A stretch of DNA of 64,000 bases from Aurantiochytrium sp. KH105 (Eukaryota > Sar > Bigyra > Thraustochytrida > Thraustochytriidae). This document shows, in pieces, positions 37,408 to 54,244 of this stretch; the first letter of the stretch is position 1, and each line of letters begins with the position of its first letter. Below the pieces are notes generated by a model. That model was given only the letters and a program-made list of their open reading frames with translations. It had not been told where the DNA came from and ran no database searches. Location: NCBI GenBank assembly GCA_003116975.1, contig BGKB01000177.1, forward strand, positions 62,001 to 126,000, written 5' to 3'. A program made the position numbers and the translations under genes.

Positions 37408-40400
37408 ATGAGCAGCAAGGCCAACTCGCGACGGGCAAGTCGACGAGGTCTGTTGCTGTCGCGAAGCAGCATTCTCGCGGGACTGGCGCGACTGCTGAAC
37501 GAGAGCAGGGCAGACGTCGCACGCGAAGACGCAGAGGACGACAACGAAGAGGACACCGACGAGCTTGCCGGCGCCCAGGAGACATCTCTCCGACTCGAGA
37601 CACTGCAACTCGTTGCCCGCGATGACGGTGGCGTGATCAAGAGCCCGGATGATCTTCTTGCGCAGGTCCTCCAAGATCGAGAGCTCTGGAATATCCTTCG
37701 CCGGAATCGTTCGCTTGAAGCATTGCACCTCGCTCGTAGCGTGCTCTCTGCCAACGTGACCGCGCAACTGTCAAAAACGCTGCGCGCAAGTCGTGGACCT
37801 GCCTCTGTCAATCTGGAGGGAGCTCAGCTAACCAGTGTGCGCGCCCTGTCATCGCTGCTGCAAGACGCCCAGCGCGGTGCGGCGTGCCAAAGTCTAAATC
37901 TCGCCTCGGTGTACACCCATGCAGGTGAGGCTCCCTTCAAAGTATTGTCTGGACGCGCTTCCACCGTTCGCGTTGGACCCGGTCGAACCCGCATCAATTT
38001 TCATGGAGCTTTTACGACCGTGGCTCTCAAGGAGATGGCAACTCTGCGGACCGGAAACCGCAGCTTTTATTACGAGGTCGACCTTGCTGGTTGGCCCTCC
38101 GAAGCCTCTTGGGCTGATATCCGTATTGGTTGGACCGACACCTGGTGGGTGGCAACTACATTTGAGGATGCCACGCGGTCAAAAGGTGGCGCTGGCGTCG
38201 GTGACAACCTCTATAGCTGGGCGTTCGATCCCTTTCGAGCCCGCGCCGTTGTAGACAATACGGAGGCCAACTTTGGGGCGCACTGCAAAACTGGAGACGT
38301 GATTGGCTGCTATGTCGATCTTAGCGCCAAGGTCATCCGATTCAGTGTCAATGGCGTGTGGGATCTGCCGTTTGGCACCGCTTTCCAAGACTTCTCGCTC
38401 TGGAAAGGCATCGTTCCCGCTCTCACGGTCGCCTCGGCACGTCACTATGCCTCTTCGGTGGAGGTCAACCTCGGCCCGAACTTTGCTTTTCCCCCAGACC
38501 GCGCAGCCGCACCAATTGCTGAATGGTTGCAACGCCAAAAAGACAGTCTACTGCGCAGCGCACTCCAAAAAATGGCAGAAAGACGCACGAATCGGAGCCT
38601 GCACTCTTTGCTGCTTTCGGGTCTCTCATTCTTGCAGAATCGTCAGCGTCCCCACAGTGTTCGATATCTCTGTCAGGCCTTCCAAGGACTTCGGCATCTC
38701 GATCTCTCAAATTGCAAGCTTGGCGACGGTGGATGCGCATCGCTCTGCCGAGAGCTTTCAGACGGGCTATCTGGTCTCCTCACACTGGATCTTTCGTCCA
38801 ACGGGTTAACCTACAAAGGAGCGAGGAAACTTTCGAGAGCACTCTTGCACAGCGGTATCAAGTATCTCGATTTGAGCAGCAATCAGCTCGCTTTCACCGG
38901 AGATCGCGCCCGAGCGCTCGAGCAGGGTTCAGCTGCAAGTGCCTCGGAACTGGAGCTCGAGTGGACATCCATCGTGGGCCCAGGCACTCAACTTGCTGTA
39001 ATTGACTTATCATGGGCCGAAATTGACGCTATCTCAGCCTGTGCTCTCCTGTCGAAGCTCGCCACCAACGATACAATACTTGGCCTTCGTCTTGATGGAA
39101 ATCCGCTCACGGGACAGGTTCTTTCGTCCCTGGCCCAAATGCTTCGTGAAAACCGTACCTTGCTCCATCTCAGTTTGGTTTCCGCCTCAATCTCAGGCGA
39201 TTGGAACTTGCTTTCCCAGCCGCTCTTTGACATCTCAGAACCAAGATGTAGCGTTTTGCAGGCTCTCGATCTTTCGGGCAACCCGATTTGCGCCAATGTC
39301 TTTGCAGATGTCGACGCTTTTCTCTCGGGCCAAAGTGCTCTCAGACGTCTCAGTGTCGCCAAGGTCGCACGGGATCATGATTTGCTACGCCAAAGATCAG
39401 CCAAGAAGAAAGCCGAAGCCGCGCAGCGCCTGGTGCGAGCACTGGCAACTTCCTTGCCCACTGTACAGCTTTCGCTGAGCATTGAATCATTCTCGCAGGC
39501 GCAAAGCTTGGGAAGCGCGCTTGGAACTCAAGCGGGGCTCGCTGTCAAACAGCTCGAGCTTGCAGGTACGGTGCCAGTGCTAGATACCGTGCTTCAATCT
39601 ATTGCCGAGGACGCGCCCGCGGCTCTTTGCAGACTAGCTGTCCGCGTGCAAGCGAGCTCCGACGATGATTCGCTTCCTTGGAAAGGACTCTGCGATGTGC
39701 TCGAGGCACTGCAGCTCGACGTTCTCCGCATTGAGGGCAGTGGGGACCACGATAGCCTATCAAGCGTGAACGCGTCTCGAGATCTTTTTGTCGAGAGTCT
39801 CGCACGAAGTGACACGCTTCACATTTTCAGTATTGCAAAGGCCTCCTCGACTCTGCGCATCATTTGGGAAGCTTTGCTTGACGCTTTCGCCGCCAGTTCG
39901 AGCCTCAAGCATGTGCGAATCGAGAATTGCAGCCTTCGAGCAGGCTCCATGGCTTTGCTCGCGCGTCTTGTCCGGGGTACAACGCCAATTTCATCAATTA
40001 AATTTGCACGAGGAAACGAAGCGTCTCGTGCCGCGGAGAGCCTCATTCGTGACTTGCTGAAGGTCTCGACGAGAGCGCGCCCTCACCGTTGCCGCGAGCT
40101 CCTCTTACACGGAAGATACCCGGATCTTGATGCTTTTAGGCTCACAGACTTGGGATTGGGTTTGGTTGGCCGAGATCTTCCTCTGCTTGGCGCTCTCCTG
40201 AGCTGGGTCAGACATGAGGTTCTCGGCCGCAGTCGCGGTCCGCTCGAGATAACAAACACGCTTGTCTTGGACGGTTCCATTGCAGGCAGAGAGGAGCAAG
40301 ATTCTGGTCGTCTCGATCTCGAGCAAAACACGATGGAAGACCCTCTGGTGCTTGGTGAAGATCTCGTCTTCCAAGGCCAACTGACCATATCGAACTGGCG

Positions 40401-42711
40401 GAGCGATATCAGATTCGCTCCTCCGTCACAGGGTATGCGCCGCTCCTGGCGTGCCATTGGCCTCCATTTTATTGACTGTCCTCAGTTGACAAGGCTTCCA
40501 CGTGGTCTCGAGGTTGCAAGCTTAGTCGTCCGAGGCTGCCCTGCGCTCACCACTCTGCCGGAAGATCTTCGCGTGTGGACGATGCTCATTTTGGAGAATG
40601 TCCCAAAGCTCGAAAGGCTCCCTCTTCAGATTGACGTGGAACACCTCGAAGTTCGAAATTGCGAAGCTCTAGAAAGTGTCATTCACGTTCGCGTTCGCGA
40701 TACTCTAGTCCTTTCCCAGTGCGGCAAGCTGACGAGTTTGCCGGGAGGCATGCATTTGAACAAGCTTGAGATTACAGAATGCTCGAATTTGCGCTCGAAC
40801 GTCGAAACCGCGCATGTCCAAAAGCAACTTTGCTTGCGCTCGCTGCCTGTGCGCTGTCTCTGTGAGGGTCTTGAGCTGCAAGACTGCTTCTTGGACGATT
40901 GTCCTCAGCTGGAGACCCTTCCTCCTGATCTGGAGGTCTACGGTTCTTTCAATTTGATTCGTTGTCCACTCGTGGAAGCCGTGCCAAGTGGCGTGCGCGC
41001 AGAAGTGATTTCGCTCGAGTCTCTTACTGCGCTTACGGGAGTGCGTACCGGGGTCTCGGCACAACATAAACTTCTTGTCGCAGACTGCCCTGCGTTGGGG
41101 TCGCTGCCTGAAACCATTTTGAGCGCAGGGCGGCAGCACGTGGAAATTCGAAGTTCGGGTCTCCAAGCCTTTCCCTACGCGCCCGAGCTCTTGTCCTGTC
41201 ACATAATGCAATGCGCCGAGTTGCTCGAGTTGCCGTCATCGTTACGAGTCAAATTTGAGCTTCGCCTCGAGCAGTGCGGTATTCTGCAATTGCCTGAGTC
41301 TCTTCAAGTTGGCAGTCTGCGCGTCTTCCAGTGCCTGAACTTGATGGAAATTCCCCCTCGTGCCTATTGCCGAGGTAACATGATCATCGACTCGTGTCCG
41401 AGCGTGGAAGAGCTACCGGACGTCCTCAATTTGCGCGGCTCATTGGGCCTTCGCAAGCTGCCTTCGTTGCGACGTCTGCCCGACAATGTGCGCGCTCATG
41501 CCAGAATCGATATTCGGGACTGCACGCACCTGGAAAAGCTCTCGGAGCGCATGCGTGCTGCTAGCCTTGTGCTTGAGGACAATCCCGAGCTTTGGCTCAT
41601 TCCGGAATCCACGCGGATTGCGTCAAGCATTCAAACTCGAAACTGCAGCTCACTTCACAGCATCCCAGACAGTGTGCTGAGGAACGTTCAGCGCGTTGTA
41701 GTGGATGAGGCATCCCCGATCGGCCGCGATGCAGACTTGGAATTCCTCGAGGCCCGATGCGCCGCCTTGCAGACGAGGCTGTACATTAATGTGACTGACG
41801 ATGAGGACGAGGATCGAGACACGGAACATGAGCGATTGGACGAGGCTGTGGCGTATTGGGAGACGCACGCTGGCGGGACACCCGAGCTCGAGCTGGAAAG
41901 CGAGCTGGACAGCTTTTACCACTCGTCCGTTCTTGGTTTTCTGAATCTGCTGCGTCGAAGCGCAGAGTTTCGACGGCCTGATCTTCGCGAGGGCTTAGCT
42001 CAGCGGGTCGTGGAGCTTTTGCGCATTCTCAATGAGAACCCTGATGGTGTCCGGGAAGACTTGCTGTCACGCATTTCGGATGCCATCGATTCATGTTCGG
42101 ACAAGCCTATCTGGGCTCTCAACGACATGTATTTGATGACACTTATTATCAGGGCCCGAGGTAACCGGGACGCTCTTCGCTCGCTTGGGAAGCGCGTTAT
42201 GCGACTGCAAATCGTACGCGATCAGGCAGCACAGCATCCTGGCGCCGATCAAGACGACGTGTGTGTATACCTTCGCTTTGAAATTTCGCTGCGCGAGTCG
42301 CTCGACTTGCCCGTGTCCTCGGTCGCTATGCTGTATCGTACCTTTGTGACGGTGACCCCTGAGGAGATTGAGAAGGCTCGCCAGGCAGCGCTAGGGGTAA
42401 GCCAAGCCGAATTCGAGACGTGGCTTGGTGCTTGGCCAGAGTGGGAGCGGCAATTGCGAGCAGAGGCAGCAGCGACAATTCGATATGAGACCCTGGATGC
42501 AGAAGTCCTTTCCCGGCGCTCGAGTCTCCGGGCATTTAGCGGCGAACCGATGGATCATCCCGTTGTGGTGGCGCGACGCGGGCCTTGGGAATTATCCGAG
42601 TTGCTCGATCGCTGGGTCGTGACAGGACTCGACTTTGCCAATGTGGCCCTGGAACCTTCTGAGTTTATCCGCAACCTGCACCGTGCCTTGCCGTACGAAA
42701 CCCGAAAATGA
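37408..42711 (+). CDS. Giant SPRY / LRR / NEL-type E3 ubiquitin ligase-like protein
   Basis: 1767 residues, one open frame from the ATG at 37408. Residues about 211-361 form a SPRY/B30.2 domain (FYYEVDLAGWPSEASWADIRIGW is split here: FYYEVDLAGW; later GCYVDLSAKVIRFSVNG). About 427-640 are RI-type LRRs (LDLSNCKLGDGGC, LDLSSNGLTYKGAR). About 1020-1437 are about 20 short repeats of the form L-x-I-x-x-C-x-x-L-x-x-L-P-x-x-L-x-V, the style of bacterial LRR effectors. About 1454-1690 match the NEL E3 ligase domain: SCSDKPIWALNDM with the candidate catalytic Cys1563 and Asp1565 (C-x-D motif), DDVCVYLRFEISLRESL, and FETWLGAWPEWERQL. A tail of about 75 residues follows. NEL ligases form a Cys-ubiquitin thioester. 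Codon use matches the neighbours. The function in a eukaryote is unknown. Confidence 0.8.
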   Translation: MSSKANSRRASRRGLLLSRSSILAGLARLLNESRADVAREDAEDDNEEDTDELAGAQETSLRLETLQLVARDDGGVIKSPDDLLAQVLQDRELWNILRRNRSLEALHLARSVLSANVTAQLSKTLRASRGPASVNLEGAQLTSVRALSSLLQDAQRGAACQSLNLASVYTHAGEAPFKVLSGRASTVRVGPGRTRINFHGAFTTVALKEMATLRTGNRSFYYEVDLAGWPSEASWADIRIGWTDTWWVATTFEDATRSKGGAGVGDNLYSWAFDPFRARAVVDNTEANFGAHCKTGDVIGCYVDLSAKVIRFSVNGVWDLPFGTAFQDFSLWKGIVPALTVASARHYASSVEVNLGPNFAFPPDRAAAPIAEWLQRQKDSLLRSALQKMAERRTNRSLHSLLLSGLSFLQNRQRPHSVRYLCQAFQGLRHLDLSNCKLGDGGCASLCRELSDGLSGLLTLDLSSNGLTYKGARKLSRALLHSGIKYLDLSSNQLAFTGDRARALEQGSAASASELELEWTSIVGPGTQLAVIDLSWAEIDAISACALLSKLATNDTILGLRLDGNPLTGQVLSSLAQMLRENRTLLHLSLVSASISGDWNLLSQPLFDISEPRCSVLQALDLSGNPICANVFADVDAFLSGQSALRRLSVAKVARDHDLLRQRSAKKKAEAAQRLVRALATSLPTVQLSLSIESFSQAQSLGSALGTQAGLAVKQLELAGTVPVLDTVLQSIAEDAPAALCRLAVRVQASSDDDSLPWKGLCDVLEALQLDVLRIEGSGDHDSLSSVNASRDLFVESLARSDTLHIFSIAKASSTLRIIWEALLDAFAASSSLKHVRIENCSLRAGSMALLARLVRGTTPISSIKFARGNEASRAAESLIRDLLKVSTRARPHRCRELLLHGRYPDLDAFRLTDLGLGLVGRDLPLLGALLSWVRHEVLGRSRGPLEITNTLVLDGSIAGREEQDSGRLDLEQNTMEDPLVLGEDLVFQGQLTISNWRSDIRFAPPSQGMRRSWRAIGLHFIDCPQLTRLPRGLEVASLVVRGCPALTTLPEDLRVWTMLILENVPKLERLPLQIDVEHLEVRNCEALESVIHVRVRDTLVLSQCGKLTSLPGGMHLNKLEITECSNLRSNVETAHVQKQLCLRSLPVRCLCEGLELQDCFLDDCPQLETLPPDLEVYGSFNLIRCPLVEAVPSGVRAEVISLESLTALTGVRTGVSAQHKLLVADCPALGSLPETILSAGRQHVEIRSSGLQAFPYAPELLSCHIMQCAELLELPSSLRVKFELRLEQCGILQLPESLQVGSLRVFQCLNLMEIPPRAYCRGNMIIDSCPSVEELPDVLNLRGSLGLRKLPSLRRLPDNVRAHARIDIRDCTHLEKLSERMRAASLVLEDNPELWLIPESTRIASSIQTRNCSSLHSIPDSVLRNVQRVVVDEASPIGRDADLEFLEARCAALQTRLYINVTDDEDEDRDTEHERLDEAVAYWETHAGGTPELELESELDSFYHSSVLGFLNLLRRSAEFRRPDLREGLAQRVVELLRILNENPDGVREDLLSRISDAIDSCSDKPIWALNDMYLMTLIIRARGNRDALRSLGKRVMRLQIVRDQAAQHPGADQDDVCVYLRFEISLRESLDLPVSSVAMLYRTFVTVTPEEIEKARQAALGVSQAEFETWLGAWPEWERQLRAEAAATIRYETLDAEVLSRRSSLRAFSGEPMDHPVVVARRGPWELSELLDRWVVTGLDFANVALEPSEFIRNLHRALPYETRK

Positions 42712-51732: not shown

Positions 51733-52110
51733 CGTCAGTCAAATCAATCCAATCTGAAGAACAAGAACAACAACGACAAGAAGAACTCCCGCCGCCTCGT
51801 CCCGGTGCACTTGGCCGTGCGAGGCGCGCGCGCTCGGCTCCTCCTCTCCGCCAGGTGGACCGCGTCTGTCTGTCTGCCTGTCTGTCGGAGGGGAGGAGGG
51901 AGGGAGAGTCGCATCGACTTACCTTGGATTGCGATTTGCCGACGGGGTCGCGAGACCTGCCCGCTGCTGCTGCTCTCTCTCTCTCCCTCCTCCCCTCCTT
52001 CCTGCCCTTTCCCTCCTTCCTTCCTTCCTTTACCTTACCATGCCGCTTCCTTCTCTGCCTGCAGTGTCACCGCATTGCATTACACCGGCCACGGGCCAGC
52101 AAGGTGGATC

Positions 52111-52140
52111 GCACTGCACTGCACTGCACTGCACTGCACT
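52111..52140. repeat. (GCACT)n pentanucleotide array
   Basis: Six perfect GCACT units followed by GCGCT variants, in the divergent thiolase/TFIIS-N promoter region. Confidence 0.9.
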
Positions 52141-52342
52141 GCGCTGCGCTGCACCGCCTTGCACCGCGGCGCGTCGCATCGCATCGCATAGCGCTGCGCA
52201 TAGCGCTGCGCAACGTGAACAGAGCCCGCATCTCGGCCGGCACAGCGCGCGCGCGCGTGCGTGCAGCTGGCTGCAGAGGGCGGTACTCCTCCCTCGTGCC
52301 TCGGCCTCGACTCGCTGCTCCTGCTGCCAGACAGACACACAC

Positions 52343-52366
52343 ACAGACAGACAGACAGACAGACAG
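52343..52366. repeat. (CAGA)n tandem array
   Basis: About six CAGA units preceded by CACA repeats, in the divergent thiolase/TFIIS-N promoter region. Confidence 0.85.
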
Positions 52367-52798
52367 TGCCTGCAGTCCGAGGGTGAAATGGAAATCCCGC
52401 CGCCGTACTGCACTGCAATGCCACGCAACGCGATGCCATGAATGCAACGCAGTAAAATACAATGCCTTGCCTTGCCATGCAATGCGCGCTTCCCATTTCA
52501 TTGCGCTCGTTGCACCGCAGAGGCGCATTACAGGCGGAGTCCGACCCTGGCCGGCCGGGCTGGCACGTCCAGAACGTCTGGAAGCGCCAGGGCCGCGGGA
52601 AGCTCGGGAGCGTCTGGAAGGCCGGGAGCCCCGAGAAGGCTGGGAAGCGACGAAGCGAAGGGCGCGCGAGGCAGGGAGGGAAGGGAGGGAGGGAGGGCGC
52701 CGCAGACGAGCAACCGCGCGCGCGCGGGCGGGGACGCGGCGGCGGGCAGCGGCGAGCGCAGCGGCGGCCCGCGCGCGGGGCGGGCGCAGAAGGGGAGC

Positions 52799-52917
52799 AT
52801 GGCGCTGGAGCTGCTGGAGCGGAAGAAGGCGCTCGTGCGCGCCGTCGAGGCCGAGGAACGCGCCGGCAAGGAGCTGCTCACAGCGCTGCGCGAGCTCCGC
52901 GCACAAGTGGAGGCCGC

Positions 52918-52958
<41 letters not shown>

Positions 52959-54244
52959 CGGGGGGAGGCGGGCACAATGACCACGCCGCTTTGGAGAGCC
53001 TGCTCGGCAGCCTTTTGAATAACAAATTGGGCGCCGCCGCGCTGCGAGCCGACGTCCAGCACGAATGTAAAAAAGTGCTCGACGGGCTCAAAGCAGGCGC
53101 GTCAAAACCTCAGCCAGCTGACACTGCTTCTGCAAGTGCCTCTGTGTCTGCTCCGTCTGCAGCTACTACTCCAGCGGACCCCACCTCTTCCGGTGCCACG
53201 AAATCTCCGGTGAATGGCACTGCAAATTCCGCCCAAGGAAGCAATGCTGCAGTCGTAAAGCAAGAAGAACCAGCCGTGAAACAAGAGGCAGCAACAAAAC
53301 AAGACCCAGACATGAAACAAGAGCCTGCAGCAACAAACAAAGACCCAGTCGTGAAACAAGAATCAGTAGTGAAACAAGAGCCTGCAGCAAAACGAGAGCC
53401 ACGACCCCGCCTCACCGGCCTTGGAGTAAGCATGCTCAAGTTTGACGATTGTGTGCGCCAGCTCCAGGAAGAGGCCGCCGCCGAAGAGTTCCACAACATG
53501 ATCGTCCTCATGTCACGCCTTCGCAACGTCAAGCGCATTACTATGGAGGACATGAAGCGGACAAATGCAGGAAAGATTCTCGGCAGGATCGCCAGAAAGT
53601 GTGCAGACGAGAAGACCCGCAATGCCGCAAATGCTACTACAGAGATTGTAAGGAAGCGTTTGCAAGAGCAAATGAAGGCAGAAAAGGCAGAGTCTTCGAA
53701 AACGGCAAAGGCAGAAGCTGTGAAACCTACAAAGGAAGACGCAGAAAAACGCCTTTCTGCATCCGCGGCTCGCGCTGAGAAGCGAAAGCGCGAATTCCAA
53801 GAATCCAAAAAGGCAAACCAGCCCCGCCTGCTCAATCCCAATGAGCCTGGTATTCGCAAGCCGCTGCAAGGATCAAAGGCCACCGACGCAAGGTCCTCCT
53901 CGGGCTCCAATGCAGACAAGGAACGCAAACGAAAATCTGACCGAAGAGAAGCCAAAAAGGAAGCCAAAAAGGACAAGAAAAAGAAAAAGAGCAAAAAGGA
54001 AAAGCGGCGACGAAACAGTGAGGACGAGGATGAAAGCGAGGTGGAGAGCGGCGACGACGACGACGATGATGGCCAAGACGACTTTGCCAGTTGGATGAAG
54101 GCGCGGCGCGCGCGTCTCTCAGAGGCACGAGAGTACAGCGAGCGCGAGGAAAAGATTAGTGCAATGATTGGAGAAGAGGAGGACTTGGAAGCCGAGCTTG
54201 AGGAGCGAAGGGCGCGCCTCAAGAAGAAGAAGAAGGCTGCATGA
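52799..54244 (+). CDS. TFIIS N-terminal (LW)-domain protein with poly-Q and VKQE repeats
   Basis: 481 residues from the ATG at 52799. The N-terminus is a coiled coil (ALELLERKKALVRAVEAEER) that ends in a run of about 14 glutamines (CAG codons 52919-52956). A helical segment (LESLLGSLLNNKLGAAAL) follows, then a low-complexity stretch with about six KQE/KQD motifs (residues about 155-200). Residues about 210-295 match a TFIIS N-terminal/LW-type helical bundle (IVLMSRLRNVKRITMEDM, KRTNAGKILGRIARK, TTEIVRKRL). The C-terminus is strongly basic (KKDKKKKKSKKEKRRR), then acidic (DDDDDDG) and basic again, typical of nuclear chromatin or elongation factors such as IWS1 and TFIIS relatives. No central TFIIS or zinc-ribbon domain is present. 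Exact role unknown. Confidence 0.75.
52919..52956 (+). repeat. CAG repeat encoding poly-glutamine
   Basis: Twelve to fourteen consecutive CAG codons in the TFIIS-N protein. Uniform codon use suggests recent trinucleotide expansion. Confidence 0.9.

Follow-up and report, generated by a model that had tools for sequence, protein, structure and literature searches.

NEL ubiquitin ligases of bacteria receive ubiquitin from an E2 on the cysteine of a C-x-D motif and transfer it to a lysine residue of whichever substrate their leucine-rich repeats (LRRs) bind (PMC9320238). The cysteine acts as the nucleophile and the repeats as the substrate reader (PMC9320238; PMC12506513), and the C338A form of NopM is inactive (PMC3355095). 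A review of the family describes NELs as confined to bacteria that are pathogenic or symbiotic (PMC9320238). For eukaryotes, a paper on green-algal NLR-like genes calls a domain with LRR motifs homologous to NEL (PMC7145615), and the accession PF14496 stands among the search profiles applied to Giardia (PMC7029713). No report of a eukaryotic NEL family was found by title or abstract start among the open-licence papers listed, and further eukaryotic NELs may already stand in the protein databases, which lay outside that search. Here we describe a NEL gene, L017, from the thraustochytrid Aurantiochytrium sp. KH105, located in a stretch of 64,000 nucleotides (contig C177, positions 62001-126000; hereafter the window). 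The gene runs on the forward strand from an ATG at 37408 to a stop at 42711 of the window (37408..42711) and encodes 1767 residues in a single open frame with no internal stop. Its profile matches and conservation make it probable that L017 belongs to a eukaryotic family of 16 loci that encode cysteine-type E3 ligases built on a NEL core, with the activity predicted.

The NEL core and its catalytic residues

The core spans residues 1507-1689 (41926..42474, forward strand, as are all features of the gene given below) and matches Pfam PF14496 with an E value of 2.4e-26 and 92.9 bits, far over the cut-off of 24, covering profile positions 28-222 of 223. A six-frame match lies at the same place, and a single-sequence search of the PDB returned the NEL ligases IpaH9.8 (E 2.8e-12, residues 1283-1694), SlrP (5.8e-7) and SspH1 (1.3e-6). 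A preliminary description of this DNA had proposed a NEL domain in a eukaryotic gene and suggested the Pfam comparison; the profile match bears the proposal out, together with the eukaryotic neighbours and the 16 diverged paired loci described below, and the three motifs that were quoted for it all lie inside the match. It had placed the domain at about residues 1454-1690, at the end of the protein. The domain is there, with its start nearer 1507, and the bacterial-like part does not close the protein, since a conserved stretch of about residues 1690-1767 with no likeness to bacteria follows the core.

Cys1563 (codon 42094..42096) is the predicted thioester cysteine of the C-x-D motif and Asp1565 (42100..42102) its aspartate, as had been suggested from the first, and both are invariant in 16 of 16 paralogues. 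A hidden Markov model (HMM) that we built from bacterial rows only (16 Pseudomonas and 1 Bradyrhizobium, 17 in total) aligned to L017 residues 1510-1687 (E 3.4e-18, with 16 proteins searched) and paired Cys1563 with the bacterial C-x-D cysteine; a MAFFT alignment with 12 Pseudomonas rows likewise placed it there. The likeness to bacteria stops at residue 1687 in this HMM, which reported 14 of the 16 full eukaryotic proteins. The 16-row alignment also holds invariant the A-L pair following the motif and three later tryptophans, among others. A candidate second acidic residue, Asp1616 (42253..42255), lies in the motif D-D/E-V-x-V-Y/F-L; it is nearly invariant in the 16 paralogues and invariant in the MAFFT alignment with Pseudomonas rows (A4), and we infer that it may be the counterpart of Asp397 of IpaH9.8.

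Upstream of the core, residues ~1027-1424 (40486..41679) form LxxLP-type LRRs with a period of 20-21 residues, recognised by lag analysis and similar to the repeats of the paralogues; repeats of this type go by the name LPX. The hydrophobic lag peak in the 410 residues preceding the core is 21, equalled in 8 of 500 shuffles. The repeats of bacterial LRR-NEL ligases are of the LxxLP type, and such repeats are visible in the Bradyrhizobium NEL protein. Given the same cysteine, aspartate and repeats as in bacterial NELs, the family most likely shares their chemistry, a conclusion drawn from sequence and selection. Further towards the N-terminus are ribonuclease-inhibitor-like LRRs at residues 428-494 (38689..38889; Pfam LRR_6 E 4.4e-10, above its cut-off, with an LRR_8 match to the same residues below its own), residues 425-519 matching ribonuclease inhibitor in the PDB sequence search (1.8e-7). 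A SPRY domain occupies residues 220-355 (38065..38472; PF00622 E 1.6e-12), with ryanodine-receptor SPRY among its PDB matches, and together with the ribonuclease-inhibitor-like LRRs it gives the N-terminal half a eukaryotic character. The SPRY domain and the 15 other NEL loci go beyond the preliminary description.

Sixteen paired loci in a eukaryotic genome

A PF14496 search of the organism's own 76 Mb genome (367 contigs) gave 32 matches on 29 contigs, all above the cut-off and free of stops; the same profile matched none of 14 control genomes, those named being prokaryotes. Each of the 32 copies has one partner with 95.5-100% identity in the NEL region (for L017 it is locus L016 on contig C156, at 99.0%), and beyond the pairs the closest paralogues are about 35-53% identical. 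We read the near-identical pairs as haplotypes of one genome and therefore count 16 loci, though an allopolyploid would give the same picture. Every locus is held twice with about 7-8% synonymous difference between the copies, and the assembly thus looks like unmerged haplotypes or two subgenomes. Two adjacent NEL genes in divergent orientation (L035:678-6804 and L037:3013-9259) are found in both copies of their region.

Partners were compared for all 16 pairs by the Nei-Gojobori method, using the portion of each frame that falls inside loci some 3.5 kb long (10 kb for L040/L041). In the NEL region the nonsynonymous rate (dN) is 0.0062 and the synonymous rate (dS) 0.0713, a ratio of 0.086 (61.5 nonsynonymous and 212.5 synonymous changes), while the part of the frame upstream of it has a ratio of 0.166 (247.8 and 460.2 changes). 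Individual pairs range from 0 to 0.33 in NEL and from 0.06 to 0.40 upstream, the upstream value not being the higher in every pair. On these ratios the NEL enzymes are held by selection and the part in front changes about twice as fast overall, in keeping with a constant catalytic portion that follows variable regions for recognition. The C and D of C-x-D are retained in all 32 copies, and 30 have C-x-D-K-P.

Several observations count against a family of active ligases. The pair L013/L015 reads C-G-D-M-I instead of C-x-D-K-P, and the pair L025/L027 supplies the NEL ratio of 0.33. L008 and L022 went unreported by the bacterial-only HMM (E up to 10), though the Pfam NEL profile finds both. An AlphaFold2 model of the L017 core and tail, run with 12 Pseudomonas rows, has a mean predicted local distance difference test (pLDDT) score of 39.0 and is not usable for judging the all-helical fold of NELs. 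Finally, the E2-binding thumb of the bacterial enzymes is not recognisable in the family: the HMM match ends at 1687, and 16 Pseudomonas tails score 12.5 in the profile comparison described below. The lack of a recognisable thumb would also speak for a core that survives without catalysis, as a scaffold or to bind ubiquitin, and a Pseudomonas relative without C-x-D (L078) indicates that such loss occurs in the wider family. Retention of both residues in all 32 copies and the slower change of NEL than of the part upstream make this alternative quite unlikely, and we favor a catalytic NEL core.

Genes around L017 in the window include those for a CPSF100-like metallo-beta-lactamase/beta-CASP protein, a VTC/SPX protein, an AP-complex medium subunit, a PUF-repeat protein, a ubiquitin-specific protease, an IQCH-like ATP-grasp protein and a PQ-loop protein, and the genome holds 49 E2 matches, both copies counted. 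Polyunsaturated fatty acid (PUFA) synthase is a mark of thraustochytrids. Long PfaA-like PUFA-synthase matches are present, the best at 930 bits, under the family's cut-off of 1010 bits; the PfaA profile also gives matches in 11 of the 14 control genomes, none above the cut-off. The matches agree with a thraustochytrid source and make it plausible, short of proof. Relative synonymous codon usage of the whole of L017 correlates with that of 11 other window genes at r 0.878, the top of those genes' own range (0.689-0.878). The host-like codon use claimed earlier accordingly holds for the whole gene, the NEL part alone (~261 codons) giving r 0.478, a figure without a length-matched control.

The neighbours, the diverged paired loci, the codon use and the purifying selection together place a NEL-type core in a eukaryotic gene. 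A rival reading, that the sequence is a bacterial contaminant or was inserted from a bacterium very recently and is no working eukaryotic gene, would agree with the bacterial nature of the relatives that the prokaryote genome collection yielded (13 Pseudomonas loci, 24-28% identity). It is extremely improbable in view of the neighbours, the 32 copies that are spread over 29 contigs and fall into 16 near-identical pairs, the SPRY, SAM and ribonuclease-inhibitor-like heads, the host-like codon use of the whole gene and the separate grouping in the tree, and a nearer bacterial relative was not found in the single prokaryote scan. With neighbours and genome both eukaryotic, L017 is not a bacterial secreted NEL effector, a class tied to a bacterial genome. 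Elsewhere in the window, positions 52001-54000 have an AT skew of 0.322 (-0.22 to 0.11 in the remainder) and long overlapping open frames on both strands; for the one frame tested there, 52442-54244 on the forward strand, Pfam returned nothing at E up to 0.01.

The prokaryote genome scan yielded 13 loci, all from Pseudomonas, with the core identity given above; 12 are long open frames of 1562-1707 residues and one (L063) has 330. NEL was present in 9 of 398 evenly drawn Pseudomonadota genomes, one of the nine being the chosen centre, already known as positive. Among viral contigs scanned with the 16-row NEL alignment, 7 stretches matched and 0 were confirmed. A tree of 24 rows, cut manually around the cysteine, comprised the 16 eukaryotic loci and 8 bacterial ones (4 of the 13 scanned Pseudomonas loci, 3 further Pseudomonas NELs and 1 from Bradyrhizobium, whose branch is very long at 3.64); L078 was left out as it lacks C-x-D. 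The eukaryotic 16 are separate from the bacterial 8 with support of 97/99, most inner eukaryotic forks are not resolved, and the tree is drawn with an arbitrary root. A single acquisition with later expansion fits this unrooted tree of 8 bacterial rows and no other eukaryote, with which the reverse direction would also be compatible. That NEL arose in eukaryotes and was taken from them by bacteria could account for its patchy bacterial distribution, and ubiquitin is itself eukaryotic; on an unrooted tree with so few bacterial rows we hold this origin unlikely.

Two of the bacterial relatives deserve mention in their own right. In L078 (G003:C34:265000-266400), a Pseudomonas NEL-like protein, C-x-D is replaced by S-S-A-D-G, and the protein is possibly a pseudo-ligase. 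The NEL protein L079:1096-2916, encoded on Bradyrhizobium barranii plasmid NZ_CP096252.1, carries C-terminal to NEL a protease domain of the Ulp1/C48 type (PF02902 E 1.6e-9), so that one chain combines a NEL ligase with a domain of SUMO-protease type.

The paralogues have their last part in common and vary in their N-terminal heads. The full-length forms represent each of the 16 loci by one copy; Pfam scanned L017 and 7 others from end to end, L008 in pieces, and only the last 570-999 residues of the remaining 7, whose heads are for that reason mostly unscanned. The SPRY region of L017 recurs in L003 (32.5% over 200 residues). L008 is a single open frame of 3533 residues with SAM domains (PF07647 E 1.7e-10 in two stretches and 6.4e-18 in one), an LRR match and NEL; loci L008, L080 and L042 all refer to the region of this relative, contig C94 132601-146099. 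In L007 Pfam gives a match to Armadillo that is weak (E 2.9e-4) and in which no single stretch passes, and the other scanned paralogues have NEL, accompanied in some by weak LRR matches. In 8 of the 16 proteins the lag peaks at 20-22, L008 among them not above shuffles, and in the other 8 it peaks elsewhere; with several of the proteins not above shuffles, a general LRR periodicity was dropped. Two related NEL proteins, L005 (with L069, contig C4) and L001, have cysteine-rich N-terminal parts with hydrophobic stretches and are perhaps membrane-bound.

These architectures also bear on whether the proteins could be secreted effectors used on other organisms, in parallel to bacteria. The characterised NELs of the family review are type III effectors (PMC9320238), and a parasitic life is described for some thraustochytrids. 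Long multi-domain proteins of up to 3533 residues with SPRY, SAM and weakly Arm-like parts nevertheless look intracellular, and a role as secreted effectors seems to us very unlikely.

The C-terminal element

In SspH1 the catalytic cysteine is C492, and the thumb that binds E2~ubiquitin comprises residues 623-697, folded as two long antiparallel helices and a small one (PMC12506513). It begins 131 residues past the cysteine, an offset which in L017 leads to residue 1694, and it is here that a conserved C-terminal element starts (residues 1694-1767, 42487..42708). The element, delimited by conservation among the paralogues, is about 75 residues long with the consensus L-x-G-x(4)-D-P-V ... W-S-L-x-D-L-L-x-H-W-V-x-T-G-x-D-F-x-N; L009 is without its first part. 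The preliminary description had called the gene full-length and intact. The frame is indeed intact, but full-length is too strong a term, since no thumb can be recognised and a different conserved element sits at that position. A basophilic kinase motif, R-R/K-x-S, near the element was dropped as a candidate, the pattern occurring in only 8 of 16.

Within the element, residues ~1709-1754 (42532-42669) weakly resemble a U-box in profile comparison. Compared by hhalign with a profile of 7 U-box rows from the same genome (two of them 97% identical), the element scored 26.3 with a probability of 46%, or 64% once trimmed. All counted controls were lower: 150 column shuffles reached at most 15.1, 60 tile groups cut from these same proteins no more than 16.9, and the 16 Pseudomonas NEL tails 12.5. 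The Bradyrhizobium tail, which did not match the tail pattern, was excluded from the last set; a SAM control of 2 rows only (score 10.2) was not counted. Omitting each U-box row in turn (7 runs) or sampling 8 rows of the family at random (8 half-sized runs) kept the score between 23.4 and 28.8 and the register roughly unchanged, though the alignment shrank to 29 columns in 7 of the 15.

There is much to set against the likeness. The probability in these reruns is just 23-64%, and D-P-V/I is present in 10 of the 16 elements. Pfam found no U-box in full L017 (E up to 1) or in the 16 elements (E up to 10), where it returned two unrelated families with one member each (E 0.034 and 0.19). The profile of the element found no U-box in the PDB, its best match being unrelated at E 0.48. 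A single-sequence AlphaFold2 model of the element alone has a pLDDT of 51.7, and with this low-confidence model Foldseek gave nothing at E up to 0.001, its 10 weak matches containing no U-box.

Two readings of the element can be weighed on these data. It may be a strongly changed bacterial thumb, its U-box likeness owing to chance or convergence; the same position in the chain, deduced from SspH1 (PMC12506513), and the want of any Pfam, PDB-profile or fold match to a U-box argue for this, whereas the score of 12.5 against Pseudomonas tails beside 26.3 against the U-box rows, which no control attained and the reruns roughly kept even where shortened, argues otherwise. We give the changed thumb an even chance. 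Alternatively, the element replaces the thumb and recruits E2 in a U-box-like manner, a tentative proposal that we put somewhat below even.

Proposed mechanism and comparison with known systems

If the family works as its bacterial counterparts do, the SPRY and LRR parts would bind the substrate, the targets being the cell's own proteins. E2~ubiquitin would pass its ubiquitin to Cys1563, from which it would be moved to a substrate lysine, as in the bacterial LRR-NEL ligases. The C-terminal element might stand in for the thumb, with E2 recruited in the manner of a U-box. It is possible, though as a whole rather doubtful, that the 16 loci form a resident repertoire of receptor-like E3s that unites varied heads and LRRs, the HECT-like thioester step of NEL and a U-box-like E2 dock in place of the thumb. 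A hybrid of NEL thioester core and U-box-type E2 recruitment is not described in the open-licence literature examined.

A eukaryote with 16 NEL loci under purifying selection breaks the rule of bacterial exclusivity, and the predicted activity would add a catalytic class of E3 to the eukaryotic set, at least in this lineage. It seems that a eukaryote has taken a NEL enzyme into the machinery by which it controls its own proteins. Where the NEL fold arose becomes a testable question, and the family is a natural case for comparing how NEL ligases are controlled when they live permanently in a cell that uses ubiquitin.

The green-algal NLR-like genes resemble L017 in that NEL is mentioned for a eukaryotic repeat protein; they differ in that it is an LRR-motif domain that is likened to NEL, with no catalytic cysteine described in the available portions of that paper (PMC7145615). 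To U-box E3 ligases the likeness is a weak profile match around D-P-V and the following W, the NEL family having no Pfam U-box match and a cysteine-type core in front. Environmental Pseudomonas NELs (L055-L067, L075-L077) have a similar core (24-28% identity for the 13 loci) with the same cysteine and a C-terminal tail that is unrelated by profile comparison. The bacterial LRR-NEL ligases IpaH, SspH, SlrP and NopM (PF14496) share with the family a C-x-D NEL core behind LxxLP repeats, whereas the family described here is eukaryotic, numbers 16 loci, has added SPRY, SAM and Arm-like heads, shows no recognisable bacterial thumb and carries another conserved C-terminal element. By profile and catalytic motif, then, the NEL core is a known one, and what appears new relative to the characterised members is the host, the heads, the number of loci and the C-terminal element.

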